Assembly: GCF_018326265.1 (NCBI RefSeq)
Contig: NZ_AP023360.1
Coordinates: 2,657,501 to 2,721,500, forward strand
DNA from: Catellatospora sp. IY07-71
GTDB lineage: Bacteria; Actinomycetota; Actinomycetes; Mycobacteriales; Micromonosporaceae
DNA length: 64,000 nt
Reading direction: 5' to 3'
Made by a program: the position numbers and the translations under genes. A model generated the notes under the pieces. That model was not told where the DNA came from. It worked only from the letters and a program-made list of their open reading frames with translations, and did no database searches. Below are positions 1,364 through 60,520 of this stretch, piece by piece (within the stretch, counting starts at the first letter, position 1; each line of letters opens with the position of its first letter).

Positions 1364-1428
1364 AAGATCGCGGTCTCGTGTCGAAAAGTGCGCTTGAAGC
1401 CCACCTTTGGACACGAGATCGCGATCTT
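1364..1428. repeat. Family A intergenic inverted repeat, copy 1
   Basis: Arms of 19 bases at 1364-1382 and 1410-1428 pair with one G-T mismatch. The distance from the first GATC (1366) to the last GATC (ending 1426) is 61 bases, the same as in every other family A copy. It lies between two genes on the plus strand and may also end MMPL transcription. Confidence 0.85.
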
Positions 1429-1557
1429 CGCGGTGAGCGGCTCCGGGGTGGAAACCGTTGGTACACAGAGCGTTCATGTGAGCGCGGGCCGGATGACGTC
1501 CACGACCCCTAGCGTGCTCGATGTCACTCAAGACATCGACATGTGTGGAGGTCTACC

Positions 1558-2712
1558 GTGGATCGTCGCAACCTGCTGCGGGCCGGAGTCGTGGGCGGGG
1601 CGGCCGCCGCCTTCTCGGGCGCGCTGTGGAAGGAGGCGTTCGCCGCACCGGCGCAGCCGGGTCCGGGGCCGTACGGCGCGCTGCAGGCCGCCGACGCGAA
1701 CGGGATCATGCTGCCGTCCGGCTTCACCAGCCGGGTGATCGCCCGTACCGGCCAGACCGTGCCCGGCACCTCCTACACCTGGCACAGCGCGCCCGACGGG
1801 GGCGCCTGCTTCGCCGACGGCTCGGGCTGGATCTACGTGTCGAACTCGGAGGTGTCCGCGGGTGGCGCGTCGGCGGTGCGGTTCAACTCCGGCGGGACGG
1901 TGACGGGGGCGTACCGCATCCTGTCCGGCACCTCGACGAACTGCGCCGGCGGGCACACCCCCTGGAACACGTGGCTGTCCTGCGAGGAGACGAGCACCGG
2001 GCGGGTCTGGGAGACCGACCCGTGGGGCGTGAACGCGGCGGTGGCCCGGCCCGCGATGGGCCGGTTCAAGCACGAGGCGGCCGCCTGCGACCCGGTCAAC
2101 CGGATCATCTACCTGACCGAGGACCAGTCCGACGGCTGCTTCTACCGGTTCATCCCGAACACCTGGGGCAACCTGGCCAGCGGCACGCTGCAGGTGGCCA
2201 AGGGCGGCTCGGGCACCGCGGTGACGCTCACCTGGGCGAACGTGCCGGACCCGGACGGCTCGCCGACCGCGACCCGCAACCAGGTCAGCGGCGTGAAGCG
2301 GTTCAACGGCGGTGAGGGCTGCTGGTTCGACAACGGCATCGTCTACTTCACCACCAAGGGCGACAATCGAGTCTGGGCCTACCACACGGCCACCGCGTTC
2401 ATCGAGCTGGCGTACGACGACTCGCTGGTGAGCGGCACGGCGCCGCTGACCGGGGTCGACAACATCACCGGCAGCGCCACCAGCGGCGACCTCTACGTCG
2501 CCGAGGACGGGGGCAACATGGAGATCTGCGTCATCACGCCGGACGACGTGATCGCGCCGTTCCTGCGCATCACGGGGCAGAGCTCCTCGGAGATCACCGG
2601 CCCGGCGTTCAACCCGGCCGGGAACCGCTTCTACTTCTCCTCGCAGCGGGGCACCTCCGGCTCGTCGTCCGGCGGCATCACGTACGAGGTGACCGGGCCG
2701 TTCCGGTCCTGA
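1558..2712 (+). CDS. PhoX-like (DUF839) Tat-exported protein, first tandem copy
   Basis: The protein has 384 residues. GTG 1558 is chosen because GGAGGT at 1547-1552 sits six bases before it; an in-frame GTG at 1543 lies upstream of this ribosome site. The N-terminus DRRNLLRAG followed by an Ala/Gly-rich hydrophobic run and AFAAPA is a Tat signal with a likely signal-peptidase site. The mature part carries DUF839/PhoX hallmarks: DGGACF, GWIYVSNSE, LSCEET, GRFKHEAAACDP, YLTED, GEGCWFDNG, VYFTTKGD and ITGPAFNP. PhoX enzymes are calcium/iron-dependent alkaline phosphatases, but this short form is well below classical PhoX length, so phosphatase activity is inferred only. It is followed after 16 bases by a close paralogue. 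Confidence 0.85.
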   Translation: MDRRNLLRAGVVGGAAAAFSGALWKEAFAAPAQPGPGPYGALQAADANGIMLPSGFTSRVIARTGQTVPGTSYTWHSAPDGGACFADGSGWIYVSNSEVSAGGASAVRFNSGGTVTGAYRILSGTSTNCAGGHTPWNTWLSCEETSTGRVWETDPWGVNAAVARPAMGRFKHEAAACDPVNRIIYLTEDQSDGCFYRFIPNTWGNLASGTLQVAKGGSGTAVTLTWANVPDPDGSPTATRNQVSGVKRFNGGEGCWFDNGIVYFTTKGDNRVWAYHTATAFIELAYDDSLVSGTAPLTGVDNITGSATSGDLYVAEDGGNMEICVITPDDVIAPFLRITGQSSSEITGPAFNPAGNRFYFSSQRGTSGSSSGGITYEVTGPFRS

Positions 2713-2728
2713 GCGCACGGGAGGCAGG

Positions 2729-3886
2729 ATGCGCCGTCGCGAGCTGCTGCGGGCCGGGCTGGCCGGCGCGGGCGCGGCGGCGCTGTCCGGCGTGCTGTGG
2801 CAGCGGGCGTTCGCGGTCACGGCGCTGCCGGTAGCCGCTCCCTATGGCGCGCTGCGCCCGGCCGACGCGAACGGCGTCGCGCTGCCGGACGGCTTCACCA
2901 GCCGGATCGTGGCCCGGTCCGGGCAGCCGGTCGCGGGCACCGGATACACCTGGCACCGGGCGCCCGACGGCGGCGCGTGCTTCGCCGACGGGGCGGGCTG
3001 GATCTACGTGTCGAACTCGGAGATCCCGCTGGGCGGCGGCGCGTCGGCGGTGCGGTTCGCGGCGGACGGGTCGGTCGTGTCGGCGTACCGCATCCTGGCT
3101 CGGACCCACGTGAACTGCGCGGGCGGGGCGACGCCCTGGCAGACCTGGCTGTCCTGCGAGGAGGTGACCCACGGCCGGGTCTTCGAGACCGACCCGCGGG
3201 GGCGGCGGCCGGCGGAGGTCCGCCTGGCGATGGGCCGGTTCAAGCACGAGGCCGCCGCGTGCGATCCGGAGCGGCGCGCCGTCTACCTGACCGAGGACGA
3301 GGAGGACGGCTGCCTCTACCGCTTCCTGCCGGAGACGTGGGGCGATCTGGAGCGCGGGCGGCTCCAGGTGCTGTGCGCCCCGCCGGGCACCACATCCGGG
3401 CCGGTGACCTGGCAGGACGTGCCGAGCCGGGACGGCGCCGGGGTGCCCACCCGGTGGCAGGTGCCCGCCGCGCTGCACTTCGACGGCGGCGAGGGCTGCT
3501 GGTACGAGAGCGGCGTCTGCTACTTCACCACCAAGGGCGACGACCGGGTGTGGGCGTACGACGCGGCCGCCTCGGCGCTCGGCCTGGCCTACGACGCGGC
3601 GTCCGGCGGCACGCTGAGCGGCGTCGACAACATCACCGGCGCGCCCCGCAACACCGACCTGTTCGTCGCGGAGGACGGCGGCAACATGGAGCTCAACGTG
3701 ATCACCGGCGACGGCGCGGTCGCCCCGTTCCTGCGGCTGCCCGGCCAGGACGCCTCCGAGATCACCGGACCGGCCTTCAACCCTGCGGGCGACCGCCTCT
3801 ACTTCTCCTCCCAGCGGGGCCACTCCGGCGCCCGCTCCGGCTCCGGCGGCATCACCTACGAGGTCAGCGGCCCGTTCCGCGGCTGA
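2729..3886 (+). CDS. PhoX-like (DUF839) Tat-exported protein, second tandem copy
   Basis: The protein has 385 residues and aligns along its whole length with the preceding gene, sharing GACFADG, GWIYVSNSE, LSCEE, GRFKHEAAACDP, VYLTED, GEGCW, TTKGDDRVWAY, VAEDGGNME and ITGPAFNPAG. The N-terminus MRRRELLRAGLAGAG is another Tat signal, with cleavage likely after FA near residue 30. GGGAGG sits just before the ATG and the gap to the upstream gene is 16 bases, so the two are probably one transcript. It arose by tandem duplication, with enough divergence to suggest an old event or different substrates. Extracellular phosphoester hydrolysis is inferred from the family. Confidence 0.85.
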   Translation: MRRRELLRAGLAGAGAAALSGVLWQRAFAVTALPVAAPYGALRPADANGVALPDGFTSRIVARSGQPVAGTGYTWHRAPDGGACFADGAGWIYVSNSEIPLGGGASAVRFAADGSVVSAYRILARTHVNCAGGATPWQTWLSCEEVTHGRVFETDPRGRRPAEVRLAMGRFKHEAAACDPERRAVYLTEDEEDGCLYRFLPETWGDLERGRLQVLCAPPGTTSGPVTWQDVPSRDGAGVPTRWQVPAALHFDGGEGCWYESGVCYFTTKGDDRVWAYDAAASALGLAYDAASGGTLSGVDNITGAPRNTDLFVAEDGGNMELNVITGDGAVAPFLRLPGQDASEITGPAFNPAGDRLYFSSQRGHSGARSGSGGITYEVSGPFRG

Positions 3887-3902
3887 GGCACGTTTTGTGC
3901 CG

Positions 3903-3931
3903 TTGACCGGCCGGTGGGCGGTCGGAATACT
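3903..3931 (+). promoter_or_regulatory. Promoter of the YcxB-like gene
   Basis: TTGACC at 3903-3908 and AATACT at 3926-3931 are separated by 17 bases, a good housekeeping -35/-10 pair. The ATG begins 6 bases after the -10, so the transcript is probably leaderless. Confidence 0.55.
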
Positions 3932-3937
3932 GCCCGG

Positions 3938-4480
3938 ATGCAGATCCACAGTGCGGACCTCGTCGAGGTGACCTGGATGTGGGACCGCGCCGCGTTCCGC
4001 CGGGTCGCCTGGCAGGAACGGGCGCTGTCCAACCTCTGCTACGGCGTCGCCGCGATCGTCAGCCTCGCCCTCGCGGCCTGGATGATCAACACGGCGTTGC
4101 GGCAGGGCGGCACGTTTCCCTACGGCGGGGTGTGGATCGCGCTCGTCGGCGCCGTGGCGGCCGTGCGCGTCGCGCTGACCGGATGGCTCTGGCTGCGGAA
4201 CACGCCCGACGTCTGGTACACCCCGCTCACCGTGCGCATCGACGCGCAGGGCGTGCGCCTGCTGTCGGCGAGTTCGGAGCATTTCTACCGGTGGTCCGGG
4301 CTGGCGCCGGTGCGGCGTACCCGCGATGACTGGATCTTCAGCGCGACCGGGGTCGGCCTGATCCGGGTGCCGCGGGCGCTGATCACCGACGTGGACGACG
4401 CGGCCATCGCGGTGGTGGTCGACCGGTACGCCGACCGTGTGGGCCGCCCCGCCGACCTGCCGCCACCGGCGGTGGTCTGA
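3938..4480 (+). CDS. YcxB-like membrane protein
   Basis: The protein has 180 residues. ATG 3938 is preferred over the in-frame GTG at 3914 because a -10-like AATACT ends 6 bases before it. Two hydrophobic helices (about residues 30-50 and 63-85) follow a short N-terminal strand region. The second half (WYTPLTVRIDAQGVRL, then HFYRWSGL) resembles the YcxB-like C-terminal domain, a small PH-like beta fold after two membrane helices. No enzymatic motif is visible and its role is unknown. It stands between the PhoX pair and an acetyltransferase on the same strand. Confidence 0.6.
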   Translation: MQIHSADLVEVTWMWDRAAFRRVAWQERALSNLCYGVAAIVSLALAAWMINTALRQGGTFPYGGVWIALVGAVAAVRVALTGWLWLRNTPDVWYTPLTVRIDAQGVRLLSASSEHFYRWSGLAPVRRTRDDWIFSATGVGLIRVPRALITDVDDAAIAVVVDRYADRVGRPADLPPPAVV

Positions 4481-4506
4481 TGCCACCACCCCTGGAGGTC
4501 TGAACG

Positions 4507-5040
4507 ATGCGCCTGGAGACGGCCCGCCTGCTGGTGCGGGAGTGGACGGACAGCCCCGCCGACCTGGACCGCAACTACGACACCTACCGGCGCGAGGAGG
4601 TGACGCGCTGGCTCGGCGCGGCCACCCCGCTGGTCAACCGGGAGCAGTCGCCACTGCTGATGGACCGGCGCCGCGAGTACTACGCGGCACACCCCGGCTA
4701 CGGCGTGTGGGCCGTGGAGGTGCGTGCCACCGGCGTGGTCGCCGGGTCGGTGCTGCTCAAGGAGATGCCGACGCCGTCCGCCGGGCCGGGCCGGGGCGAG
4801 ATCGAGATCGGCTGGCACCTCCATCCGGACTGCTGGGGCCACGGGTACGCCACCGAGGCGGCGCGCGCCGTGCTCGACCACGGCTGGGCGCTCGGGCTCA
4901 CCGAGATCCACGCCATCGCCCGCCCCGACAACGCCGCGTCGCTGGCGGTGATGCGCCGCCTCGGCATGACCCGGGTGGGCCGCACCACCCGCTGGTACGA
5001 CCTCGACGCCGAGCACTACGTGATCACCAAGCCCGGCTGA
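4507..5040 (+). CDS. GNAT-family N-acetyltransferase (RimJ/RimL type)
   Basis: The protein has 177 residues. It opens with LETARLLVREWT, the typical start of RimJ/RimL-like acetyltransferases. It contains EIGWHLHPDCWGHGYATEAARAV, where the GHGYATEA stretch is the acetyl-CoA pyrophosphate loop, and a late IARPDNAASLAVMRRLGM block. CTGGAGGT lies about 6-13 bases before the ATG. Members acetylate protein N-termini, ribosomal proteins or small amines; the acceptor here is unknown. It starts 26 bases after the YcxB-like gene, so the two may be cotranscribed. A perfect hairpin follows the stop. Confidence 0.85.
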   Translation: MRLETARLLVREWTDSPADLDRNYDTYRREEVTRWLGAATPLVNREQSPLLMDRRREYYAAHPGYGVWAVEVRATGVVAGSVLLKEMPTPSAGPGRGEIEIGWHLHPDCWGHGYATEAARAVLDHGWALGLTEIHAIARPDNAASLAVMRRLGMTRVGRTTRWYDLDAEHYVITKPG

Positions 5041-5048
5041 GGGTGCAC

Positions 5049-5100
5049 TTTCAGGGAAACTGCACGAACTACCGCCGCGATTCGTGCAGTTTCCCTGAAA
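5049..5100. repeat. Family E intergenic inverted repeat, copy 1
   Basis: A perfect 20-base inverted repeat (arms 5049-5068 and 5081-5100) has a 12-base loop, 52 bases in all. The arm begins TTTCAGGGAAACTGCA. A second copy of equal length is at 59985-60036. It begins 8 bases after the upstream stop and could serve as a terminator before dxr. Confidence 0.85.
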
Positions 5101-5173
5101 CTGCCTGCCGGCGGATCTGCTCGACGAGTAGCCCGCTCAGGGGGCGTTCAGGGGGGTCGGCGAGAATGAGGCG

Positions 5174-6373
5174 ATGATCCCCCGCGAGATAGTTCTGCTC
5201 GGCTCCACCGGATCGATCGGCACGCAGGCGATCGACATCGTGCGGCGCAACCCGGACCGGTTCCGGGTGGTCGCGCTGGGCGCGGGCGGCGGCAACGTGG
5301 CGCTGCTGGCGCAGCAGGCGCTGGAGCTGGGGGTCGAGGCGGTCGGGGTGGCCCGGGCCAGCACCGCGCAGGACCTGCAGCTGGCGTTCTACGCCGAGGC
5401 GCAGCGGCGCGGCTGGTCGGCGGGGCAGTTCAAGCTGCCGAAGATCCTCGCCGGGCCGCAGGCGATGACGGAGCTGGCGCAGTGGCCCGCGGACATCGTG
5501 CTCAACGGCGTGGTGGGCTCGCTGGGCCTGGCGCCGACGCTGGCCGCGCTCAAGGCGGGACGCATCCTGGCGCTGGCCAACAAGGAGTCGCTGGTCGCGG
5601 GCGGCCCGCTGGTGCGGGCGGTGGCCGCGCCGGGGCAGATCGTGCCGGTGGACAGCGAGCACTCGGCGCTGGCGCAGTGCCTGCGCGGCGGCTCGCCGGC
5701 CGAGGTGCGCCGGCTGATCCTGACCGCGAGCGGCGGCGCGTTCCGCGGCCGCCGCCGCGAGGAGCTGGGCGCCGTCACGGTCGAGGAGGCGCTCAAGCAC
5801 CCGACCTGGGACATGGGCCCGGTGGTCACGATCAACTCGGCGACGCTGGTGAACAAGGGTCTCGAGGTGATCGAGGCGCACGAGCTGTTCGGGGTGGCGT
5901 ACGACGACATCGAGGTGATGGTGCACCCGCAGTCGGTGCTGCACTCGCTGGTCGAGTTCACCGACGGCTCGACGCTGGCCCAGGCCAGCCCGCCGGACAT
6001 GCGGCTGCCCATCGCGCTGGCGCTGGGCTGGCCGGACCGGGTGCCGTACGCGGCCGAGCCGGTGGACTGGACGCAGGCGCACAACTGGGAGCTGCGCCCG
6101 CTGGACCGCGAGGCGTTCCCGGCGGTGGAGCTGGCCAAGGCCGCGGGGCGGGCGGGGCGCTGCCGGCCGGCGATCTACAACGCCGCGAACGAGGAGTGTG
6201 TGGCGGCTTTCACAGCGGGGCGGCTGCCCTTCCTGGCGATCGTGGACACCGTGGCGGAGATCCTCGACGGTGCGCCGGACTATGCCGAACCAGGTACCGT
6301 CGAGGACGTGCTCGCCGCGGAGCACTGGGCGCGCACGCGCGCCCACGAACTGATCAAGGAGAAGAGCGCCTGA
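5174..6373 (+). CDS. dxr: 1-deoxy-D-xylulose 5-phosphate reductoisomerase
   Basis: The protein has 399 residues, the usual DXR length. It converts DXP to 2-C-methyl-D-erythritol 4-phosphate with NADPH in the MEP isoprenoid pathway, in the cytoplasm. The NADPH loop GSTGSIG is at residues 10-16. Later come [12 protein letters not shown], the metal/substrate region [13 protein letters not shown], the SGGAFRG loop and [21 protein letters not shown]. ispG, a later enzyme of the same pathway, is two genes downstream, as in M. tuberculosis. No clear ribosome site precedes the ATG; a GAGAAT hexamer at 5162-5167 would allow a leaderless start. The stop overlaps the next start (TGATG). Confidence 0.97.
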
Positions 6374-7590: not shown

Positions 7591-7597
7591 GTGTGCT

Positions 7598-8764
<1,167 letters not shown>

Positions 8765-8777
8765 CCCGCTGACTCAA

Positions 8778-8816
8778 GCGAGCAGGCCCCGTTCCTCAGG
8801 AACGGGGCCTGCTCGC
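8778..8816 (+). terminator. Terminator of the dxr-rseP-ispG operon
   Basis: A perfect 19-base inverted repeat (8778-8796 and 8798-8816) with a one-base centre, rich in GC, begins 13 bases after the ispG stop. There is no long T run, as is usual for actinobacterial terminators. Confidence 0.8.
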
Positions 8817-8851: not shown

Positions 8852-8920
8852 CGATCTTGCGCGAAGTGTTGCCCTTTTGGGCGGTAGGGGCGTGTCGTCC
8901 CCACCGTTCGCGCAAGATCG
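8852..8920. repeat. Family D intergenic inverted repeat, copy 1
   Basis: Arms of 14 bases (8852-8865 and 8907-8920) give a 69-base element, the length shared by all three family D copies. Its core is in the opposite orientation to the other two: the complement strand reads CGACACGCCC. It lies between the convergent ispG and padR genes, beyond the ispG terminator. Confidence 0.8.
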
Positions 8921-11182: not shown

Positions 11183-11207
11183 CCCCGCCGGGTGCCGGGC
11201 GCCGTGC

Positions 11208-11262
11208 CGCCCCGCCCCGCTCTGCCCCGCCCCGCCGCACCCCGCCCCGCCCCGCCCCGCCG
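11208..11262. repeat. CCCCG tandem tract
   Basis: About 55 bases made mostly of CCCCG units with two interruptions. The complementary strand has repeated GGGG runs and could form G-quadruplexes. It directly abuts a family A hairpin; a similar tract at 59845-59879 abuts a family C hairpin. Confidence 0.7.
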
Positions 11263-11267
11263 AGGAT

Positions 11268-11328
11268 GATCGCGAGTTCGTGTCGGAAAGTGTGGTCTGG
11301 CCACAGGTTTCGACACGAAGTGGCGATC
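11268..11328. repeat. Family A intergenic inverted repeat, copy 2
   Basis: Arms 11268-11285 and 11311-11328 pair with two mismatches; GATC to GATC is 61 bases. The loop contains TGGTCTGGCCA. It lies between convergent genes. Confidence 0.85.
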
Positions 11329-11359
11329 TTCGGCGGGTGTCCGGTGTGGCTGGATGGTG

Positions 11360-11424
11360 AAGATCGCGGTTTCGTGTCCAAAGGTGCGGTCTGGCCTTAG
11401 GTTTGGACACGAAGTGCCGATCTT
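11360..11424. repeat. Family A intergenic inverted repeat, copy 3
   Basis: Arms 11360-11382 and 11402-11424, with GATC to GATC again 61 bases (11362-11422). It follows copy 2 after 31 bases in the same orientation, and its loop also has GGTCTGGCC, so the pair looks like a tandem duplication or double insertion. Confidence 0.85.
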
Positions 11425-11429
11425 GGACC

Positions 11430-11572
11430 GGGACGGGGCCGGGACGGGGCCGGGACGGGACTGGTCCAGGACTGGGACGGGGCCGGGACGGGACGGGACT
11501 GGTCCAGGACTGGACCGGGGCCGGGACGGGACGGGACTGGTTTAGGACTGGAAGGGGCCGGGACGGGGCCGG
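11430..11572. repeat. GGGACGGGGCC tandem array with about 40-base higher-order unit
   Basis: About 143 bases built from GGGACGGGGCC and GGGACGGGACT words. A longer unit ending in ACTGG followed by TCCAGGACT or TTTAGGACT occurs three times, at roughly 40-base spacing. The plus strand has many GGG/GGGG runs (quadruplex potential). It ends 6 bases before the stop of the convergent oxidoreductase gene. It has no conserved spacers, so it is not CRISPR. Confidence 0.75.
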
Positions 11573-11578
11573 CGGGGG

Positions 11579-19528: not shown

Positions 19529-19572
19529 GAAGGGCACCTTCTTAACGCATTGCGTAGAGGAAGGTGCCCTTC
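19529..19572. repeat. Family B intergenic inverted repeat, copy 1
   Basis: GAAGGGCACCTTC (19529-19541) pairs with GAAGGTGCCCTTC (19560-19572). From AAGGGCACCTT to AAGGTGCCCTT is 42 bases, as in all family B copies. It starts 3 bases after the transporter stop and lies between convergent genes, so it may end both transcripts. Confidence 0.85.
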
Positions 19573-20190: not shown

Positions 20191-20261
20191 GGGTTGATCG
20201 CGATCTCGTGTCAAGATCTGCGGTCCAGCCAAGCATTTCGACACGAGATCGCGATCAACCC
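20191..20261. repeat. Family A intergenic inverted repeat, copy 4 (perfect arms)
   Basis: A perfect 22-base inverted repeat (20191-20212 and 20240-20261). GATC to GATC (20196-20256) is 61 bases. The loop keeps the GCGGTCCAGCC word, similar to GTGGTCTGGCC of other copies. Confidence 0.9.
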
Positions 20262-20293: not shown

Positions 20294-20328
20294 TTAAGAA
20301 GGGCACCTTCCTCTACGCAAAGCGATAA
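20294..20328. repeat. Family B copy 2, left part (split by the IS)
   Basis: TTAAGAAGGGCACCTTC and the following loop run up to the insertion sequence. With the right part at 21309-21328 and one TAA removed, the element is exactly 42 bases from arm end to arm end, like the other B copies. Confidence 0.9.
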
Positions 20329-20346
20329 GAGCGACCGGCAATAGGT

Positions 20347-21198
20347 TCATTTGAGGCGTCGGGTGGTGGGACGGCCGTCCCAGCGGTAGCGGGGGCGGGC
20401 TTGTCGGATGAGTTGGCGTGTGGTGATCAGGGCTGCTGCCAGGTAGAGGTAGAAGTCCACGACCTGCGCGTTGCGTTCGGTGCAGCGGCGGATCTTGCCG
20501 TAGCCGTTCATCCATGAGTGGGTGCGTTCCACCACCCAGCGTTTGCCGACCTGGATGGGGGCGGGGAGGCCTTTGCGGGCGATCTGGCCGTGCAGGCCGC
20601 GGTCGTGCAGGCGCTGGCGGGTGGGGGTGTTGTCGTAGGCGCGGTCCAGGTGCACGGTGACGTCGTCGGGCAGGGGGCCTGTCTGTTGGGTGGCGGTGTC
20701 GAGGGTGGCTTCCAGCAGGGCGTTGTCGTTGCGGTTGGCGGGGGCGGAGATCACGGCCAGGGGTATGCCGGCGGCTTCGGTGCCGGTGGAGCGTTTGAGG
20801 CCGCCTTTGCCGCGGTCGACCGGGGAGCGTCCGGCGCGGTCTCCGCCGCAGGGTGCTTTGGTGAGCGCGCCGTCGACGGCGATGTCGTGCAGCTGTAGGC
20901 CGATCATGTTGTCGTAGGCGGCCAGGGTCAGGGCGTGCAGTTGCTGGGCGAGGCCTGCGCTGGCCCAGTCGGCCAGGCGGCGGCGGATGGTGCGGTCGGA
21001 GCATCCTGGGCCGGCGATGCGTTCGTAGCCCGAGCCGTGGACCAGGGCGTGGATGACGTGTTCGAAGACGACCTGGTCGGGGATGCGGCGGCGGTGGCAG
21101 CCCAGCGGGTGTGCGGGGTCGTATTCGGGCCGGTCGGGCAGCAGTGCGGCGAACTGGACCCAGATCGGGGTCAGCAGCGATGATGGCAGCGCAGGCAC
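20347..21198 (-). CDS. IS5-family DDE transposase
   Basis: The protein has 283 residues and starts at GTG 21198 with AGGAG just upstream. An N-terminal DUF4096-like region (PIWVQFAALLPDRP, GCHRRRIPDQVVFEHVIHAL) precedes the catalytic DDE_Tnp_1 domain. The three acidic residues are seen in DIAVDGALTKAP, VHLDRAYDN and VVERTHSWMNGYGKIRRCTE. The frame is uninterrupted. The start codon lies inside a 13-base inverted repeat (21192-21254), which would hide it in transcripts entering from outside. Confidence 0.95.
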   Translation of the reverse strand: MPALPSSLLTPIWVQFAALLPDRPEYDPAHPLGCHRRRIPDQVVFEHVIHALVHGSGYERIAGPGCSDRTIRRRLADWASAGLAQQLHALTLAAYDNMIGLQLHDIAVDGALTKAPCGGDRAGRSPVDRGKGGLKRSTGTEAAGIPLAVISAPANRNDNALLEATLDTATQQTGPLPDDVTVHLDRAYDNTPTRQRLHDRGLHGQIARKGLPAPIQVGKRWVVERTHSWMNGYGKIRRCTERNAQVVDFYLYLAAALITTRQLIRQARPRYRWDGRPTTRRLK

Positions 21199-21254
21199 GG
21201 GACTCCTGTCATTGAAGCGTAGAGAACTCCAATGATCGATAAGTCCCGTGCCTG
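21192..21254 (-). promoter_or_regulatory. Inverted repeat covering the transposase start
   Basis: CAGGCACGGGACT (21192-21204) and AGTCCCGTGCCTG (21242-21254) pair perfectly. On the transposase strand one arm contains the GTG start and touches the AGGAG ribosome site. A transcript starting outside the IS would fold and mask the start; one starting between the arms would not. This protection is known for other IS elements; here it is inferred. Confidence 0.6.
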
Positions 21255-21308
21255 TTTGCTACCCGCGACCGGCTACCTGTCCAGGTCCGCACCTAATGCC
21301 GGTCGCTC

Positions 21309-21328
21309 TAAGAAGGTGCCCTTCCTTT
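21309..21328. repeat. Family B copy 2, right part (split by the IS)
   Basis: TAAGAAGGTGCCCTTCCTTT completes the interrupted element. It ends 2 bases before the stop codon of the ABC permease, so the original hairpin sat directly at the 3' end of that gene. Confidence 0.9.
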
Positions 21329-31884: not shown

Positions 31885-31953
31885 CGATCTTGCGTGGGTT
31901 GTGGGTGCGACACGCCCGTTCCGGGCAAAAGGGCAACAGTTCGTGCAAGATCG
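31885..31953. repeat. Family D intergenic inverted repeat, copy 2
   Basis: CGATCTTGCG-type arms at 31885-31896 and 31942-31953 give the fixed 69-base length. The core GTTGTGGGTGCGACACGCC (31898-31916) is identical to that of copy 3 at 47322-47340. It lies between infB and a methyltransferase gene on the same strand. Confidence 0.8.
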
Positions 31954-35776: not shown

Positions 35777-35837
35777 GATCGCGGGTTCGTGTCCAAAGGT
35801 GGGGCTGGGGCGCAGGTTTCGACACGAGACGGCGATC
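35777..35837. repeat. Family A intergenic inverted repeat, copy 5
   Basis: Arms 35777-35793 and 35821-35837; 61 bases from GATC to GATC. It follows the two small membrane protein genes by 49 bases and may end their transcript. Confidence 0.85.
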
Positions 35838-41738: not shown

Positions 41739-41774
41739 CGGCGATGATCGCTGTCTGCTAGCGGCGATGATCGC
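41735..41774. repeat. Direct repeat CTAGCGGCGATGATCGC at the fic 3' end
   Basis: The 17-base word occurs at 41735-41751, overlapping the fic stop, and at 41758-41774, running into the family A element. It could mark the insertion of the element or a slippage duplication. Confidence 0.7.
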
Positions 41775-41829
41775 GGCTTCGTGTCAAGATCTGTGGTCTG
41801 GCCGCACTTTCTGACACGAACCGGCGATC
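41769..41829. repeat. Family A intergenic inverted repeat, copy 6
   Basis: Arms 41769-41786 and 41812-41829; 61 bases from GATC to GATC; loop with TGTGGTCTGGCC as in copies 2 and 3. It lies between fic and rpsO. Confidence 0.85.
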
Positions 41830-42410: not shown

Positions 42411-42468
42411 GTCGGTCCTCGGTAGTGGTGTCCGGAGCAAGCTCCGGGCGCTTCGATCGAAGACCGAC
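42411..42468 (+). promoter_or_regulatory. Structured pnp leader
   Basis: GTCGGTC (42411-42417) can pair with GACCGAC (42462-42468), enclosing a perfect CCGGAGC...GCTCCGG hairpin (42432-42447) and the TTCGATCGAA palindrome. It lies 57 bases upstream of pnp. In E. coli a leader stem cut by RNase III underlies PNPase autoregulation; a parallel here is inferred only. Confidence 0.45.
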
Positions 42469-46339: not shown

Positions 46340-47245
<906 letters not shown>

Positions 47246-47298: not shown

Positions 47299-47387
47299 AA
47301 GATCGCGTTGATCTTGCGCGTGTTGTGGGTGCGACACGCCCTATCCGGGCATATCCCCAACACTTCGCGCAAGATCAACGCGATCTT
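47299..47387. repeat. Family D intergenic inverted repeat, copy 3 (perfect arms)
   Basis: A perfect 22-base inverted repeat (47299-47320 and 47366-47387). The core from TGATCTTGCG (47309) to CGCAAGATCA (47377) is 69 bases. It contains GTTGTGGGTGCGACACGCC (47322-47340). It lies between convergent dapB and a GNAT gene. Confidence 0.9.
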
Positions 47388-47412: not shown

Positions 47413-47475
47413 GTCGATCACGGCCGCGGGGTAGGGACACGCCGTCGAACACGTCCATAAGTTCATGATCAACGC
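47413..47475. repeat. Family C intergenic inverted repeat, copy 2 (reverse orientation)
   Basis: Its complement reads GCGTTGATCATGAACTTATG and continues like copy 1 at 46362, including the imperfect far arm. End-to-end length is 59 bases (47414-47472). Confidence 0.8.
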
Positions 47476-49852: not shown

Positions 49853-49901
49853 AAGAAGGGCACCTTCTACTACGAATAGCGATAAGAAGGTGCCCTTCCT
49901 T
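49853..49901. repeat. Family B intergenic inverted repeat, copy 3
   Basis: AAGAAGGGCACCTTC (49853-49867) pairs with GAAGGTGCCCTTCCTT (49886-49901); arm end to arm end is 42 bases. It lies between two divergent genes, so it cannot be a plain terminator of either. Confidence 0.9.
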
Positions 49902-51673: not shown

Positions 51674-51677
51674 CGGC

Positions 51678-51744
51678 GCTGATCACCGGTTCGTGTCAGG
51701 ACCGGCGGTCGGCCCGCGCTCTCTGACACGCACCGGCGATCAGC
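51678..51744. repeat. Family A intergenic inverted repeat, copy 7
   Basis: Arms 51678-51699 and 51723-51744, with two mismatches; GATC to GATC (51681-51741) is 61 bases. It lies between convergent genes and starts 4 bases after a stop codon. Confidence 0.85.
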
Positions 51745-51760
51745 TCCCGGCCCCCTGAGG

Positions 51761-53223: not shown

Positions 53224-53229
53224 TAAGCT
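53224..53229 (+). promoter_or_regulatory. -10 hexamer TAAGCT of thyX
   Basis: TAAGCT ends 6 bases before GTG 53236; probable leaderless start. The operator array ends 72 bases upstream. Confidence 0.6.
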
Positions 53230-53235
53230 GGCCCC

Positions 53236-53988: not shown

Positions 53989-54017
53989 GGCCAGCTCTCG
54001 ACCCTGCTCCGGTCCGC

Positions 54018-54023
54018 TAGGTT
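54018..54023 (+). promoter_or_regulatory. -10 hexamer TAGGTT of dapA
   Basis: TAGGTT ends 6 bases before ATG 54030; probable leaderless start, identical to the hexamer of dapB. Confidence 0.65.
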
Positions 54024-54029
54024 GTGTGC

Positions 54030-54926: not shown

Positions 54927-54934
54927 ACGCCACC

Positions 54935-54952
54935 GGGCGGCCCGCGCCGCCC
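54935..54952 (+). terminator. Weak hairpin after dapA
   Basis: GGGCGGC (54935-54941) pairs with GCCGCCC (54946-54952) around CCGC, 9 bases after the dapA stop. It may attenuate transcription into rnj. Confidence 0.4.
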
Positions 54953-55025
54953 CAGCACGACGGTGCGTGCGCCGCGGCCCTGAACGGCAGCGCCCGCGCC
55001 GGTACACCTGAGGGAGTGATACATA

Positions 55026-56750
55026 TTGACCGCGCCGCAAATGCCTGTACTGAATATGGACAGCGGGCGTAACGCGAATCTCGGCGCACCGCCGCCGCTG
55101 CCCGAAGGGGGCCTGCGGGTCATCCCGCTGGGCGGCCTGGGCGCGATCGGCCGGAACATGACCGTCTTCGAGTTCGGCGGCAAGCTGCTGATCGTCGACT
55201 GCGGGGTGCTGTTCCCGGACACCGCCGACCAGCCGGGTGTGGACCTGATCCTGCCCGACTTCGCGCCGATCCTGGACCGCCTGGCCGACGTCCAGGCCAT
55301 CGTGCTGACGCACGGCCACGAGGACCACATCGGCGCCGTGCCGTACCTGCTCGCCCACAAGAGCGACATCCCGCTGGTCGGCTCCCAGTTCACCCTCGCC
55401 CTGATCGAGGCGAAGCTGGCCGAGCGGCGCATCACGCCGTACACGCTGACCGTCGCCGAGGGGCAGCGGGAGCGGCTCGGGCCGTTCGAGCTGGAGTTCT
55501 TCGCCGTCAACCACTCGATCCCGGACGCGCTGGCGGTCGCCATCCGCACCGAGGCGGGCCTGGTGCTGCACACCGGCGACTTCAAGATGGACCAGCTGCC
55601 GCTGGACGGGCGCATCACCGACCTGGCCGGCTTCGCCCGGCTCGGCGCGGAGGGCGTGGACCTGCTGCTGTCGGACTCGACGAACGCCGAGATCCCCGGC
55701 TTCGTGACGCCCGAGAAGCAGATCGGCCCGGTGCTGGCGTCGATCTTCGGCAAGGCGACCGGCCGCATCATCGTGGCCTCGTTCGCCTCGCACGTGCACC
55801 GGGTGCAGCAGGTCTTCGACGCGGCCGAGGAGCACGGCCGCAAGGTCGCCCTGATCGGCCGCTCGATGGTCCGCAACATGGGCATCGCCCGCGACCTCGG
55901 CCTGCTCAAGGTCAAGGCCGGCCTGGTGGTCAACATGGAGGAGGCGGCCAACCTGCCGCCCGACCAGATCGTGCTGATGTCCACCGGCTCGCAGGGTGAG
56001 CCGATGAGCGCCCTGGGCCGGATGGCGACCGGCGACCACCGGCACATCACCATCGCCCCCGGCGACACCGTGGTGCTGGCCAGCTCGCTGGTGCCCGGCA
56101 ACGAGACGAGCGTGTACCGGGTGATCAACCAGCTCGCCCGCGCCGGCGCCAACGTCATCCACAAGGACGTGGCCAAGGTGCACGTGAGCGGCCACGCCCC
56201 GGCGGGCGAGCTGCTCTACCTGCTGAACGTGGTCAAGCCCAGCAACCTGATGCCGGTGCACGGCGAGTGGCGGCACCTGCGCGCGCACGCCCAGCTCGGC
56301 ATCGACTCCGGGGTGGACCCGCAGCGCGTGGTGCTCTGCGAGGACGGCGACGTGGTCGACCTCGTGGACGGCCAGGCGAAGCTCGTCGGCCACGTGAAGA
56401 GCCGCTACGTCTATGTGGACGGCCTGGCGATCGGCGACGTGGGCGAGAGCCTGCTCACCGAGCGCCGGGTGCTCGGCGACGGCGGCTTCATCGCGGTCAC
56501 CGTGGTGGTGGACTCGGTCACCGGCAAGGTGGTGGGCGGCCCGCTGCTGTCGGCGAAGGGCTTCAGCGAGGACCCGACGGCGTTCGATCCCGCCCTGCCG
56601 CTGGTCACCGAGGCGCTGGACCGCGCCGCGCTGGACGGGGTGACCGACGCGCACCAGCTCCAGCAGATCGTGCGCCGGGTCGTGGGCCGGTGGGTCAACG
56701 AGGCCTACCGCCGCCGCCCCATGATCGTCCCCTCCGTGCTGGAGGTCTGA
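55026..56750 (+). CDS. rnj: Ribonuclease J
   Basis: The protein has 574 residues from TTG 55026; GGGAG at 55011-55015 is 10 bases before it, while ATG 55041 would be too far from that site. RNase J is an endo- and 5'-to-3' exonuclease for mRNA and rRNA. Landmarks are PLGGLGAIGRNMTVFEF, the zinc motif LTHGHEDHIGAVPYLL (HxHxDH), HTGDFKMD, SDSTNAE, ASFASHVHRVQQ and VHVSGHAPAGELLYLLNVVKP, then a C-terminal oligomerisation domain. A family C repeat follows the stop. Confidence 0.96.
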   Translation: MTAPQMPVLNMDSGRNANLGAPPPLPEGGLRVIPLGGLGAIGRNMTVFEFGGKLLIVDCGVLFPDTADQPGVDLILPDFAPILDRLADVQAIVLTHGHEDHIGAVPYLLAHKSDIPLVGSQFTLALIEAKLAERRITPYTLTVAEGQRERLGPFELEFFAVNHSIPDALAVAIRTEAGLVLHTGDFKMDQLPLDGRITDLAGFARLGAEGVDLLLSDSTNAEIPGFVTPEKQIGPVLASIFGKATGRIIVASFASHVHRVQQVFDAAEEHGRKVALIGRSMVRNMGIARDLGLLKVKAGLVVNMEEAANLPPDQIVLMSTGSQGEPMSALGRMATGDHRHITIAPGDTVVLASSLVPGNETSVYRVINQLARAGANVIHKDVAKVHVSGHAPAGELLYLLNVVKPSNLMPVHGEWRHLRAHAQLGIDSGVDPQRVVLCEDGDVVDLVDGQAKLVGHVKSRYVYVDGLAIGDVGESLLTERRVLGDGGFIAVTVVVDSVTGKVVGGPLLSAKGFSEDPTAFDPALPLVTEALDRAALDGVTDAHQLQQIVRRVVGRWVNEAYRRRPMIVPSVLEV

Positions 56751-56771
56751 TCCCGACCGTCCGCTGTGGCT

Positions 56772-56846
56772 CCTCCACGTTGATCATGAAGTTGTGGATC
56801 CGACACGCCGCTTAGGCGTTTCGTGGATTCATGATCAACGTGGAGG
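56772..56846. repeat. Family C intergenic inverted repeat, copy 3 (perfect arms, D-like core)
   Basis: A perfect 19-base inverted repeat (56772-56790 and 56828-56846). TTGATCA (56780) to TGATCAA (56838) is 59 bases. Its core GTTGTGGATCCGACACGCC (56791-56809) matches the family D core at 17 of 19 positions, unlike other C copies. The right arm ends in GGAGG, the possible ribosome site of ftsK. Confidence 0.9.
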
Positions 56847-56862
56847 GGTTACCGTGTTCGGC

Positions 56863-59355
56863 ATGGCGGGCCGTACCTCCCAACCGAGCCGTCGTCGAGC
56901 AGCCACGCCGACGAAGGCCACGGCCGCGCGTACCCGACAGACAGCCCGCCAGCCCGCGCGGCGCACGCCCGCCCGCCGGCCGCGCGCCCGGGTGCGGCGG
57001 CCGCGTTTCACCACCAACCCCGCCGCGCTGCTCGGACGGCTGCTCGGCGCGATCTGGATGGCCGTCGCGCACGGTCTCGGCTGGCTCGTCCGCGCCGCCG
57101 GCAGCCAGGCCGCCAAGGCTCGCGACCTCGACCCCGAACACCGCCGGGACGGCCTGGGGCTGCTCCTGATCGGCCTGTCCGTGCTGTTCGGCGTGGCCAT
57201 CTGGGGGCAGGGCGCGGGGCGGTTCGGCAGCTGGCTGGGCGACACCACCCGGTTCTTCATCGGCGCCACCGCCGCCGCGCTGCCGCTGCTGCTGTGCGTA
57301 TGCGGGGTGCGGGTCATGCGCTCCGACGCCGACCCGGCGCAGCGGGGGCGCGGCATCGTCGGCTGGACCGCGCTCACCCTGGCCTCGACGGCGCTGCTGC
57401 ACATCAGCATGGACCCGGTCGACGTGATCCAGATGGAGCAGGCGGGCGGCCTGCTCGGCAAACTCGTCGGCGGCGGCCTGGCGGGCTGGATCACCGGCTT
57501 CGTGGCCGGGGCGCTCTTCCTCATCCTGCTTACCTTCGGCGTGCTGGTGATCACCGCGACGCCGGTCAACAAGATCCCGGAGCGGCTGGCCGGGCTGCGT
57601 GACACCATCATGGGCGTGGCCACCCCGGCGCGCTCGGCCGAGGACGTGGACGAGGAGCAGGAGGTCCCGGCGCCGCGCCGGCGCAAGCGGCTCACCCCGC
57701 CCGCCGCGTTCACCGACCCGGACCCCGACGACGACTTCGCCGACGCGGAGATCGAGCGGCAGCTCGCCGAGCAGGAGACGGTCGCCATCGAGCGGGCGCC
57801 CCGGCCGCCGCGCCGCAAGGAGGCCCCGGCGCACACCCCGCCGCCCACCAAGACCGAGCAGCTGCTGCTGCCCAGCCTCGGCGGCGACTACACCCTGCCC
57901 CCGGCGAACCTGCTCAAGCAGGGCGAGGCGGCCAAGGCCCGGTCCAAGGCCAACGACGAGGTCATCGCCGCGCTCGCGCACGTGTTCGACCAGTTCGACG
58001 TGGACGCGGCGGTCACCGGGTTCACCCGCGGCCCGACGGTCACCCGTTACGAGGTCGAGCTGGGGCTCGGCGTGAAGGTCGAGCGCATCACCGCGCTGTC
58101 GCGCAACATCGCGTACGCGGTGAAGAGCCCCGACGTGCGCATCCTCAGCCCGATCCCGGGCAAGAGCGCGGTCGGCGTGGAGATCCCCAACACCGACCGG
58201 GAGGACGTGGCGCTCGGCGACGTGCTGCGCTCGCGTACCGCGTCCAGCGACCAGCACCCGATGGTGGTGGCGCTGGGCAAGGACATCGAGGGCGGCTACG
58301 TGGTGGCCAACCTCGCCAAGATGCCGCACATCCTGATCGCCGGCGCGACCGGCGCGGGCAAGTCCTCGTGCCTGAACTCGCTGCTGGTGTCGATCCTGGC
58401 GCGGGCCACGCCGGACCAGGTCCGGCTGCTGCTGATCGACCCCAAGCGCGTCGAGCTGACCGGCTACGAGGGCATCCCGCACCTGGTCACCCCGATCGTG
58501 ACGAACCCGAAGAAGGCCGCCGACGCGCTGGAGTGGGTCGTCCGCGAGATGGACATGCGCTACGACGATCTGGCCGCGGCCGGCGTGCGCCACATCGACG
58601 ACTACAACCGCAAGCTGCGGGCGGGGCAGATCAAACCGCCGCCGGGCAGCGAGCGGGTGCTCACGCCGTACCCGTACCTGCTGGTGGTGGTCGACGAGCT
58701 GGCCGACCTGATGATGGTCGCCCCGCGCGACGTCGAGGACTCGATCGTGCGCATCACCCAGCTGGCCCGCGCGGCCGGCATCCACCTGGTGCTGGCCACC
58801 CAGCGCCCGTCGGTGGACGTGGTGACCGGCCTGATCAAGGCGAACGTGCCGTCCCGGCTCGCGTTCGCGACCAGCTCGCTGGCCGACTCCCGGGTCATCC
58901 TGGACCAGCCCGGCGCGGAGAAGCTGATCGGCCGCGGCGACGGCCTGTTCCTGCCCATGGGCGCCAGCAAGCCGCAGCGCATCCAGGGCGCCTGGGTCAG
59001 CGAGAACGAGATCAACGACATCGTCGGGTTCTGCAAGCGCCAGCGCGAGCCGGAGTTCCGGCCCGAGGTGCTCGCCCCCGTTCAGGACAACAAGAAGAAG
59101 ATCGACGAGGAGATCGGCGACGACCTGCAGCTGCTCGTGCAGGCGATCGAGCTGGTGGTGGTGTCGCAGCTCGGCTCGACCAGCATGCTGCAGCGCAAGC
59201 TGCGGGTCGGCTTCGCCAAGGCGGGCCGGCTGATGGACCTGATGGAGACCCGCGGCATCGTCGGCCCCTCCGAGGGCTCCAAGGCCCGCGAGGTCCTGAT
59301 CAAACCCGACGAACTGGCCGAGGTCCTCGCCGGTCTCGGTGTCGACGACGACTGA
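56863..59355 (+). CDS. ftsK: DNA translocase FtsK/SpoIIIE
   Basis: The protein has 830 residues from ATG 56863; GTG 56854 is the alternative, with GGAGGGG 5 bases upstream, while TACCGT ends 7 bases before the ATG. A basic N-terminus precedes four membrane helices (about residues 45-225) and an acidic linker. The motor has Walker A GATGAGKSSCLNSLL and Walker B YLLVVVDELADLMM, with ATQRPSVDVVTGLIKAN. The gamma domain (GSTSMLQRKLRVGFAKAGRLMDLME) reads KOPS-type sites. FtsK pumps chromosome DNA at the septum. Confidence 0.96.
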   Translation: MAGRTSQPSRRRAATPTKATAARTRQTARQPARRTPARRPRARVRRPRFTTNPAALLGRLLGAIWMAVAHGLGWLVRAAGSQAAKARDLDPEHRRDGLGLLLIGLSVLFGVAIWGQGAGRFGSWLGDTTRFFIGATAAALPLLLCVCGVRVMRSDADPAQRGRGIVGWTALTLASTALLHISMDPVDVIQMEQAGGLLGKLVGGGLAGWITGFVAGALFLILLTFGVLVITATPVNKIPERLAGLRDTIMGVATPARSAEDVDEEQEVPAPRRRKRLTPPAAFTDPDPDDDFADAEIERQLAEQETVAIERAPRPPRRKEAPAHTPPPTKTEQLLLPSLGGDYTLPPANLLKQGEAAKARSKANDEVIAALAHVFDQFDVDAAVTGFTRGPTVTRYEVELGLGVKVERITALSRNIAYAVKSPDVRILSPIPGKSAVGVEIPNTDREDVALGDVLRSRTASSDQHPMVVALGKDIEGGYVVANLAKMPHILIAGATGAGKSSCLNSLLVSILARATPDQVRLLLIDPKRVELTGYEGIPHLVTPIVTNPKKAADALEWVVREMDMRYDDLAAAGVRHIDDYNRKLRAGQIKPPPGSERVLTPYPYLLVVVDELADLMMVAPRDVEDSIVRITQLARAAGIHLVLATQRPSVDVVTGLIKANVPSRLAFATSSLADSRVILDQPGAEKLIGRGDGLFLPMGASKPQRIQGAWVSENEINDIVGFCKRQREPEFRPEVLAPVQDNKKKIDEEIGDDLQLLVQAIELVVVSQLGSTSMLQRKLRVGFAKAGRLMDLMETRGIVGPSEGSKAREVLIKPDELAEVLAGLGVDDD

Positions 59356-59381
59356 GGATCATGGGGTACGCGGGCGCGGGC

Positions 59382-59387
59382 TAGGGT
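59382..59387 (+). promoter_or_regulatory. -10 hexamer TAGGGT of the DUF3291 gene
   Basis: TAGGGT ends 7 bases before ATG 59395, which favours this start over GTG 59386. Confidence 0.55.
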
Positions 59388-59394
59388 GTCCACC

Positions 59395-59844
59395 ATGGAC
59401 TTCCAGCTCGCGCAGGTGAACATCACCCGAATGCGGGCGCCGCTGAGCGACCCCGTGATGTGGGGCTTCGTGCGGCGGGCGGCGGCGGTCAACGTGCAGG
59501 CCGAAGCGGCTCCCGGGTTCGTGTGGCGGATACCCGACGATTCCGGCACCGAGGCCGTGTTCGGCCCGCTCGTCATGGCGAACCTGTCGGTGTGGGAGTC
59601 GGTCGAGGCGCTGCGCGCGTACCTCTACGGCGGGCTGCACCTGGACGCGATGAGGCTGCGTAAGAACTGGTTCGACAGCAGCGGCCTCGCGGCGCACGTC
59701 GCGCTGTGGTGGGTGCCCCGCGGCCACCTGCCCACCCTGGACGAGGGCCGAGCCCGCCTGGACCTGCTCGCCACGGAGGGCCCCGGCCCGCGCGCCTTCA
59801 CCCTGGACCGACCCCACCCGCCGGACCGCACCCCCACCCCCTGA
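59395..59844 (+). CDS. DUF3291 protein
   Basis: The protein has 149 residues. FQLAQVNITRMRAPLSDPVM, APGFVWRI, LSVWESVEALRAYLY and WWVPRGHLPTLDEGRARLDLL are the family blocks; the fold is a dimeric alpha/beta barrel related to monooxygenase-like proteins. Substrate and role are unknown. The end is a Pro-rich stretch (DRPHPPDRTPTP). It starts leaderless after TAGGGT and is followed by a CCCCG tract and two repeats. Confidence 0.82.
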   Translation: MDFQLAQVNITRMRAPLSDPVMWGFVRRAAAVNVQAEAAPGFVWRIPDDSGTEAVFGPLVMANLSVWESVEALRAYLYGGLHLDAMRLRKNWFDSSGLAAHVALWWVPRGHLPTLDEGRARLDLLATEGPGPRAFTLDRPHPPDRTPTP

Positions 59845-59879
59845 CCCGCCCGCCCCCGCCGCCCCGCCCCGCCCCGCCT
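59845..59879. repeat. CCCCG tandem tract
   Basis: About 35 bases of CCCGCC and CCCCG units directly before a family C hairpin, resembling the tract at 11208-11262 before a family A hairpin. Confidence 0.65.
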
Positions 59880-59883
59880 CGTG

Positions 59884-59946
59884 CGTTGATCATGAACTTA
59901 AGGACGTGTTCGACGGCGTGTCGCTGCCCTAACTTCATGATCAACG
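59884..59946. repeat. Family C intergenic inverted repeat, copy 4
   Basis: CGTTGATCATGAA (59884-59896) pairs with TTCATGATCAACG (59934-59946); TTGATCA to TGATCAA is 59 bases. The core has ACGTGTTCGACGGCGTGTC, as in copies 1 and 2. Confidence 0.9.
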
Positions 59947-59984
59947 AGAGCGGGGTGCGGGGGGAGCGCGCCGGAGTGGTGCTG

Positions 59985-60036
59985 TTTCGGGGAAACTGCA
60001 GGCTGGTCGGGCTGGAGGGGTGCAGTTTCCCCGAAA
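59985..60036. repeat. Family E intergenic inverted repeat, copy 2
   Basis: A perfect 16-base inverted repeat (59985-60000 and 60021-60036, TTTCGGGGAAACTGCA), 52 bases in all, the same length as copy 1 at 5049. It lies between convergent genes. Confidence 0.9.
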
Positions 60037-60079
60037 GTGCAGCTCGGCGCACCTCGCGGGTGGCGGGTGCCGGGGTGGG

Positions 60080-60343
60080 TCAGGAGGCCGGGGTGGGGTC
60101 TGCGGGGCGGCGGGAGCGGAGGACGGAGAGCAGGCCGGCGGCGCTGACGGCGGACCATACGCCTTCGAGGAGCAGGAAACCCCAGTCCCGGCTGGTCCAG
60201 GCGAGCCAGGCGAGCACGCCGGCGCCGAGGGTGTTGGCGATCAGGTAGCCGAGCGAGCGGGGGCCGGTCCAGCCGAGCTGCGTGGCGACGTACCCGCCCA
60301 GCACGGTCAGGGCGCCCAGGATCTGCAGGACGTCATGATTCAT
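60080..60343 (-). CDS. Small integral membrane protein (CBU_0592-like)
   Basis: The protein has 87 residues from ATG 60343; longer in-frame starts add an unrelated Pro/Arg-rich stretch. Three hydrophobic helices (VLQILGALTVLGGYVATQ, LGYLIANTLGAGVLAWLAW, WGFLLLEGVWSAVSAAGLL) resemble the CBU_0592-like family of small membrane proteins of unknown function. It is divergent from rimO, with a family B repeat between, and convergent with DUF3291. Confidence 0.72.
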   Translation of the reverse strand: MNHDVLQILGALTVLGGYVATQLGWTGPRSLGYLIANTLGAGVLAWLAWTSRDWGFLLLEGVWSAVSAAGLLSVLRSRRPADPTPAS

Positions 60344-60468
60344 GATCGTGTGTTCTGCGCGCCGTCTTGTCGGTCCGGGTACGGCGGGCACTCGTCCGGG
60401 GCGGGCGCCGTGGGGCGCGGCCGCCGGCCAGGGTAGCTCGGCACTCCGCCCAGGTGGGACGGGGAGGG

Positions 60469-60520
60469 TTAAGAAGGGCACCTTCTACTACGAAAACCGA
60501 TAACAAGGTGCCCTTCCTTA
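60469..60520. repeat. Family B intergenic inverted repeat, copy 4
   Basis: TTAAGAAGGGCACCTTC (60469-60485) pairs with AAGGTGCCCTTCCTTA (60505-60520); arm end to arm end (60474-60515) is 42 bases. It lies between divergent genes, 38 bases before the rimO -10. Confidence 0.9.

Follow-up and report, generated by a model that had tools for sequence, protein, structure and literature searches.

The stretch of DNA analysed here, which we call the window, covers 64 kb from position 2,657,501 to 2,721,500 of the 8,595,826-bp single-contig genome of Catellatospora sp. IY07-71 (G000). It carries short inverted repeats of five families, A to E, and the 20 copies reported in the initial annotation were all found where it had placed them (positions are those of the window; no strand is assigned to A, C and E). 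Family A comprises seven copies, each measuring 61 bp from GATC to GATC as had been claimed: 1366..1426, 42 bp past a called stop codon; 11268..11328, in a convergent gene pair; 11362..11422, with the preceding A copy 94 bp away; 20196..20256, both arms of which have changed in coordination in the sister-species copy; 35777..35837, a place that holds two copies in the sister; 41769..41829; and 51681..51741, with convergent genes on both sides. Family C lies at 46364..46424 (the sister copy is about 2 bp shorter), 47413..47473, 56779..56839 and 59885..59945; the third of these is found at the same place in the sister genome G051 and in the relatives G087, G129 and G109. Family D lies at 8853..8919 on the plus strand, with a separate GC-rich hairpin (8778-8816) in front, and on the minus strand at 31886..31952 and 47310..47376, the latter adjoining a C element. 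No counterpart of the D at 31886 was seen in G087, G129, G109 or a fourth relative, G016, apart from a half-D-like remnant in G109. The two E elements lie at 5049..5100, where half-sites flank a 20-bp spacer, and at 59985..60036.

Family B had been described as having a constant length of 42 bp; the constancy holds, whereas the value becomes 44 bp when measured from arm to arm, 42 bp corresponding to shorter arms. Three copies are intact, namely 19529..19572 on the minus strand (in a convergent pair, 3 bp past a called stop codon), 49855..49898 on the plus strand (identical in the sister species) and 60473..60516 on the plus strand, between divergent genes and present also in G087, G129, G109 and, with altered arms, G016. 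The fourth, previously given as 20294/21309, stands as one B element with the qualification that an insertion sequence of 980 bp splits it into a left part of one arm and the 18-bp spacer (20298..20328, plus strand) and a right arm (21312..21324, plus strand). The intervening IS4/IS5-type insertion sequence (20329..21308, minus strand) has terminal repeats of about 17 bp, a 3-bp TAA duplication and a transposase at 20347-21198 that matches PF01609, with PF13340 below the cut-off; it is an insertion and no part of the element, which is uninterrupted in G051.

A genome-wide census was carried out using strict patterns in which the spacer was left free, with the reversed patterns as control. It yielded 219 elements of A, 195 of B, 115 of D and 27 of E, and for C 18 forward and 14 reverse matches; the reversed patterns of families A to E gave no match. 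Spacing does not vary widely, one length dominating in each family. Among the 100 A matches listed, the spacer measures 27 bases in 98 and 26 in 2. Every B match listed is 44 bp long but one (38 bp), and this total is kept all the same where the centre is split 6+5+7 or 6+6+6. All D matches listed for G051 are 67 bp long, and the exceptions among those listed for G129, of 54 and 66 bp, are chance-like in appearance. C is mostly 59 bp among the matches listed, with four of 60, one of 57 and one of 40 bp. For E, whose pattern is GGGAAACTGCA-N20-TGCAGTTTCCC with a nearly random spacer sequence, a spacer of 5-35 bases was permitted and one of 20 bases was found in 75 of the 75 matches listed (eight species; 92 matches overall). 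A relaxed census likewise returned the dominant spacing in 58 of 58 B, 30 of 30 D, 8 of 9 E and 5 of 7 C elements. For A it returned 63 at spacer 27, and 22 other spacings had 1-7 matches each, a scatter that looks like what mismatch-tolerant 7-mers would give.

The excess over chance is also seen within the window, where CGTGTC-N{5,35}-GACACG occurs 7 times against a shuffle mean of 0.86, with one spacing in all 7, and where 13 pairs of 7-mer and spacer occur at least 3 times, against 0-2 in 20 shuffles. A control on reversed sequence gave no match for A, B or C and 6 for D when 3 mismatches were permitted; D matches at that limit include false positives (12 of 34 in genes), and tighter limits were used afterwards. 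Half-sites occur mostly in correctly spaced pairs (A 60 of 63, B 66 of 84, E 11 of 12). Finally, a family-blind search of 704 kb of this genome returned 10 groups, which include A, B, D and E at the same spacings, and the same search in three pooled relatives returned 16 groups including C, about ten of which look like chance or coding sequence. Two extra families emerged: CGACTTGCC...GGCAAGTCG, of about 61 bp, in this genome, and TGGCCT-N37-AGGCCA, which measures 49 bp and occurs in G016 as well as in the pooled relatives.

Relative to genes, as called with a crude home-made codon model, the elements lie mostly at 3' ends. Among 73 A copies, 38 are placed in convergent, 28 in tandem and 4 in divergent gaps and 2 at an edge, compared to 22%, 38% and 41% for convergent, tandem and divergent gaps under random placement; these A counts lean on 30 stretches (L001-L030) chosen for A content. 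Counted by gap, an element of families A to E is present in 37 of the 85 between convergent genes, in 49 of the 232 between tandem genes and in 6 of the 106 between divergent genes. As the initial annotation had indicated, the families are not found mostly within genes: 1 of 73 A, 3 of 51 B, 3 of 11 C (at a loose threshold), 0 of 20 D and 0 of 8 E copies lie inside a called gene. The B core lies 0-16 bp past a called stop codon in 31 of the 43 copies with an adjoining 3' end, compared to 11% within 15 bp at random.

Orthologous copies were compared between this genome and its sister G051 in five aligned blocks totalling about 270 kb (96-97% identical), which contain 61 orthologues of the same family and length (23 A, 24 B, 10 D and 4 C). 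The flanks, within 40 columns, carry 590 substitutions in 4397 aligned bases (13.4%) and 139 gap openings, and at this rate about 107 insertions or deletions would be expected in the 3373 element bases of the 61 equal-length pairs. Since pairs had to be of equal length to count as matched, they are fairly compared with slots in which both genomes have an element but of different length, and two of these were seen: a B with a 33-bp insertion and, in G051, a C that is shorter. The list of unmatched elements includes edge cases, two coding-like hits (D and C), one doubtful B and the B interrupted by the insertion sequence. More specifically, the boxes of A (columns 1-5 and 11-17, picked after the consensus of this genome was known) changed at 17 of 552 positions (3.1%) and the other A columns at 146 of 851 (17.2%). 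Leaving out the doubtful pair at 35777, where the sister has two copies and the match fell on the one of lower similarity, makes little difference (17 of 528 and 138 of 814). The arms of B changed at 6 of 624 positions (1.0%) and its spacer at 70 of 432 (16.2%). The freer columns change at about the flank rate, while boxes and length do not. The low change in the boxes and the kept length, set against the flanks, indicate that both are selected, so that the length constraint proposed in the initial annotation is well supported by orthologues that keep length and boxes.

Beyond the sister pair, abundance differs widely between species. The exact A core occurs 223 and 233 times in two of the 11 genomes of the genus, then 39, 17, 15, 13, 11 and 1 times, and is absent from the remaining three; outside the genus, 139 genomes have 0-3 each. 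Degenerate A-like 61-mers are found in G129, G109 and G016, and part of the difference in A copy number is therefore consensus drift. One pattern finds family B in all 11 genomes of the genus. A second pattern finds it in 10 of these 11 and also matches members of the genera designated g4, g11, g18 and g32 (25 of 150 genomes overall). Rows of this second pattern were listed for the window's genus (g1) and for g18, and those of g18 show a match length of 40 bases in all but one (+1 base), with other central triplets. The arms of B come in dialects: GGGCACC here, GGGGCCC and GGGTCCC in G016 and in g18. At the gaps orthologous to 60473 and 49855, G016 carries B elements with arms like GAAGGGGCCCTT and GAAGGGTCCCTT and a geometry of 44 bp. 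In a genome of another genus (G052, contig C2), inverted pairs of B elements about 60 bp apart were observed at 227325-227424, 2414626-2414725 and 2603117-2603217.

The family that occupies a given gap can also differ from species to species. At 11183-11578, this genome and G051 have two A elements, G087 has an A and a B, G129 a variant E and G016 a C. At the gap orthologous to 51674-51760, A is replaced by a D-like element with GTGACCCC in G087 and G129, and by a TGGCCTAT family in G109 and G016.

Fixed length, conserved half-sites with freer columns between them, selection on both and placement at 3' ends are thus directly seen, and the elements are selected, length-locked dyads lying mostly at gene 3' ends. 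This suggests working sites rather than junk repeats or ordinary terminators. Intergenic palindromes of bacteria are usually classed as terminators or as mobile debris resembling repetitive extragenic palindromes (REP), and neither label predicts a near-exact length with a freer spacer, hundreds of copies and several unrelated families. We tentatively favor a reading, to which we give a little less than an even chance, in which the families are bipartite dyad sites for duplex-binding proteins acting as two-way transcription barriers. Two inverted half-sites at a set distance would form a two-fold symmetric site in duplex DNA; a sequence-specific protein would read the half-sites, and its bound geometry would dictate the length of the spacer and little of its sequence. 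Bound sites, mostly at gene 3' ends, would then stop or insulate transcription in both directions, chiefly between convergent genes. The parts of this proposal differ in strength. That a protein binds the elements is rather probable, and we consider it similarly plausible that binding would be to the duplex instead of folded DNA or RNA; that the effect would be a transcription barrier rather than chromosome organization is a more doubtful step. A bolder version, in which dedicated DNA-binding proteins, one per family, would each recognize a bipartite dyad of exact length and together turn hundreds of gene 3' ends into protein-bound transcription barriers, appears unlikely to be correct in full.

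Binding to the duplex is favored by the combination of an exactly kept length of nearly random spacer and base classes that do not pair. In A, such little-paired classes (among them A/T at positions -1 and -2, C/G at column 23, and C/T at columns 10, 29 and 30) would fit a readout of the duplex. The distance between half-site centers is 31 bp in B and 41 bp in E. With a turn of about 10.3 bp this makes three and four helical turns, a spacing that for these two families fits a protein that would sit on one face of the duplex. The main rival explanation is a hairpin-based terminator without U-tract: an RNA or single-stranded DNA hairpin would work as an unusual terminator or mRNA 3' end, its length measured by a protein or by RNA polymerase. 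We judge this explanation unlikely, even though it agrees with the placement at 3' ends, with the B core lying so close behind stop codons, and with an orientation bias of B across six genomes, where its direction is the same in 7 of 7 minus-minus gaps and the opposite in 9 of 12 convergent gaps. Plus-plus gaps, however, show no bias (6 versus 6). A U-tract, taken as 5 or more T within the 8 bases directly behind the core, follows 1 of 68 A, 0 of 48 B, 0 of 19 D and 0 of 9 E elements, and canonical terminators were accordingly set aside for these four families, for which the earlier remark that ordinary terminators differ proved right. Furthermore, the arms of a working hairpin should co-vary, and covariation in the inner part of A is absent or negative (column 29, z -3.6); the stem of E does not extend overall into the spacer (mean 1.34 versus 1.19 shuffled), and sense-strand G-U pairs show no excess over A-C in A (29 versus 35) or D (33 versus 34). 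A hairpin also offers no evident reason why a nearly random loop should have exactly 20 nt, and two D copies of the window already lie behind separate hairpins.

A number of observations nevertheless weigh against duplex-bound barriers. Folding of A, B, D and E is much stronger than that of shuffled sequence, as it would be for any palindrome, and the stem of A does co-vary weakly: columns 7-10 reach z 1.3-1.9, the triplets at 18-20 match in 23 of 98 copies where 12.2 are expected (z 3.5), and double changes between orthologues in columns 1-20 number 7 against 3.3 expected, 6 of them keeping the pairing. In the flanks of A, position 2 alone pairs above expectation (z 4.3). Pairs 2, 3 and 7 of E are likewise above expectation (z 2.0, 3.3 and 2.0), the outer-stem changes of the C element at 56779 are coordinated, and wobble counts lean toward RNA in B (7 versus 3), C (13 versus 4) and E (8 versus 5), with few cases in each. 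Such weak covariation could reflect either a hairpin under selection or the mending of quasi-palindromes by template switching. Copies in divergent gaps, as at 60473, misfit a role at 3' ends. Unpaired half-sites amount to 40 of 78 for D, whose arm has only 8 bases, and 4 of 8 for C in the strict count. A scan with a 20-base-spacer instead of the 18-base-spacer pattern of B gave a sole match, in Catellatospora methionotrophica, 18 bp after a putative TAG stop; this B with its 20-base spacer departs from the otherwise kept 18 bases. No candidate binding protein was identified, and several families would need several proteins. Moreover, a static site leaves unexplained the species-wide drift of B and the 2 of 24 orthologous B elements that are flipped between their arms (for example T1 10611 and T3 62755), the flips also counting against a hairpin.

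This drift is seen in the B center, where GAAA and CATA number 14 and 1 among 27 copies here, compared to 5 and 11 among 27 copies of G051 (Fisher p 6e-4). At the base after the second CG, 19 copies have A and 8 have T here, compared to 5 and 22 in G051 (p 3e-4); both p-values are rough since copies are related. Five orthologous B pairs have GAAA here and CATA in G051. B copies are also much alike, the best neighbor matching at 39-44 of 44 positions. Among A elements, one pair 1.2 kb apart has identical cores (G000:C1:3332775-3332815 and 3334019-3334059), perhaps a local duplication, and among 98 A spacers compared no neighbor is closer than 25 of 27. The drift of B, its flips and the identical A pair together imply that copies are overwritten within a genome; gene conversion, template switching and fresh copying are each a possible route. 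Under the bolder version with one dedicated protein per family, a site and its protein changing together would explain the arm dialects of B and the coordinated drift of its center, both on a geometry that stays the same, and also the replacement of one family by another in a given gap. The drift at orthologous places is in any case a natural instance of concerted evolution in very short elements.

Overwriting and turnover bear on a further explanation, that the families are non-autonomous mobile repeats, harmless behind genes, which were moved as REP by REP-associated tyrosine transposases (RAYT), moved as miniature inverted-repeat transposable elements (MITE) by DDE transposases, or were spread and overwritten by recombination. 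We consider this improbable. The unequal copy numbers of A (223 and 233 in two species, 0-39 in nine), the exchange of families at one gap, the likeness, joint drift and flips of B and the identical A cores are what speak for it. Between the sister genomes, seven A elements occur in one only (2 here, 5 in G051), and one B present here is absent from the sister with clean edges and a 79-bp difference. Net size differences in such cases of gain or loss are 58, 61, 79, 96, 105, 115, 116, 144 and 283 bp, in addition to the 33-bp insertion; only that of 61 bp matches an element (A), and the flanks there align uncleanly. Two cases are probably recombination between neighboring copies. The earlier label 'REP- or MITE-like' is not supported. 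RAYT-driven REP are unsupported by the transposase content, as this genome has one IS200-type transposase gene (a 150-aa open frame; Pfam Y1_Tnp) and no Y1/RAYT transposase was found in G051, G087 and G016, three relatives that carry the families. MITE insertion is unsupported because none of 12 cases of gain or loss, read by eye between this genome and the sister, shows a target duplication. Closest A spacers matching at no more than 25 of 27 positions and the selection on boxes and length add to the case against mobility. As to decay of the kind expected for MITE, boxes and length are kept in the sister, but degenerate A-like 61-mers exist in relatives and a half-D-like remnant in G109. A phage origin was set aside, the viral contigs containing no exact match to A or B.

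Least probable among the explanations weighed is that the elements are chromosome-organization sites, like those of nucleoid proteins or gyrase, located at 3' ends where supercoils gather. Density in the sampled stretches is 25.0 per 100 kb at 1.5-3 Mb, 23.6 at 7.5-8.6 Mb and 2.1 at 4.5-7.5 Mb, the sampling being partly set by which sister contigs were taken. These dense and sparse regions, the enrichment in convergent gaps and the distances between neighbors would suit such sites. Neighbors less than 260 bp apart have centers 78-116 bp apart, save one B-B pair (169 bp), and A neighbors recur at 105 bp, about ten helical turns (G000 803995/804100, 921018/921123 and 2760805/2760910). However, besides this limit of the sampling, 0-1.5 Mb has only 6.2 per 100 kb and hence there is no simple gradient, and we know of no chromosome-organization site of 44-67 bp.

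U-tract terminators are scarce in high-GC actinobacteria. If a protein does bind the elements, these bacteria would have an additional means, based on a protein, of ending or insulating transcription. Among known systems, the REP and bacterial interspersed mosaic elements (BIME) of enterobacteria and pseudomonads are likewise dispersed 3'-end palindromes with hundreds of copies, sometimes in close pairs, and the present families share with REP that they are palindromic, intergenic and present in many copies; they differ in their near-exact length of 44-67 bp, in forming several unrelated families and in the absence of Y1/RAYT from three relatives. Operators bound by a dimer of dimers have two inverted palindromic half-sites at fixed spacing, as do B (31 bp) and E (41 bp), and a bipartite site with fixed spacing, conserved half-sites and a freer spacer is what we find; here, however, there are hundreds of copies, mostly at 3' ends and not at promoters. 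Intrinsic terminators are matched in having a hairpin at the 3' end of genes and not in the U-tract (A, B, D and E).

In the portion of the source available to us, paired DNA uptake sequences are described as forming terminators in Neisseria and others (PMC2267715). They resemble the elements in being conserved inverted pairs behind genes with species dialects, and differ in that most half-sites are paired here, those left single amounting to 3 of 63 in A, 1 of 12 in E and 18 of 84 in B, on which ground the uptake-sequence model was set aside. The same source, in that portion, covers the stem-loop sequence families that Cozzuto et al. (2008) found in 40 genomes, with Corynebacterium and Mycobacterium as actinobacteria; these too are intergenic stem-loops found by clustering, and no length lock is stated there (PMC2267715). 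In the related actinomycete Actinoplanes sp. SE50/110, many stable GC-rich secondary structures were obstacles to sequencing and are not described, in the part of the report consulted, as fixed-length repeat families (PMC3364876). A search of one open-access library, at the level of listings and passages, gave no recognized description of families A to E.

Known RNA families were also compared, and at the gathering score Rfam had no match on any element of the window. Its matches elsewhere in the window are an Actino-pnp RNA at 42411-42468, near a pnp-like gene, and a guanidine-III riboswitch at 60356-60411 on the minus strand, which adjoins the B element at 60473.

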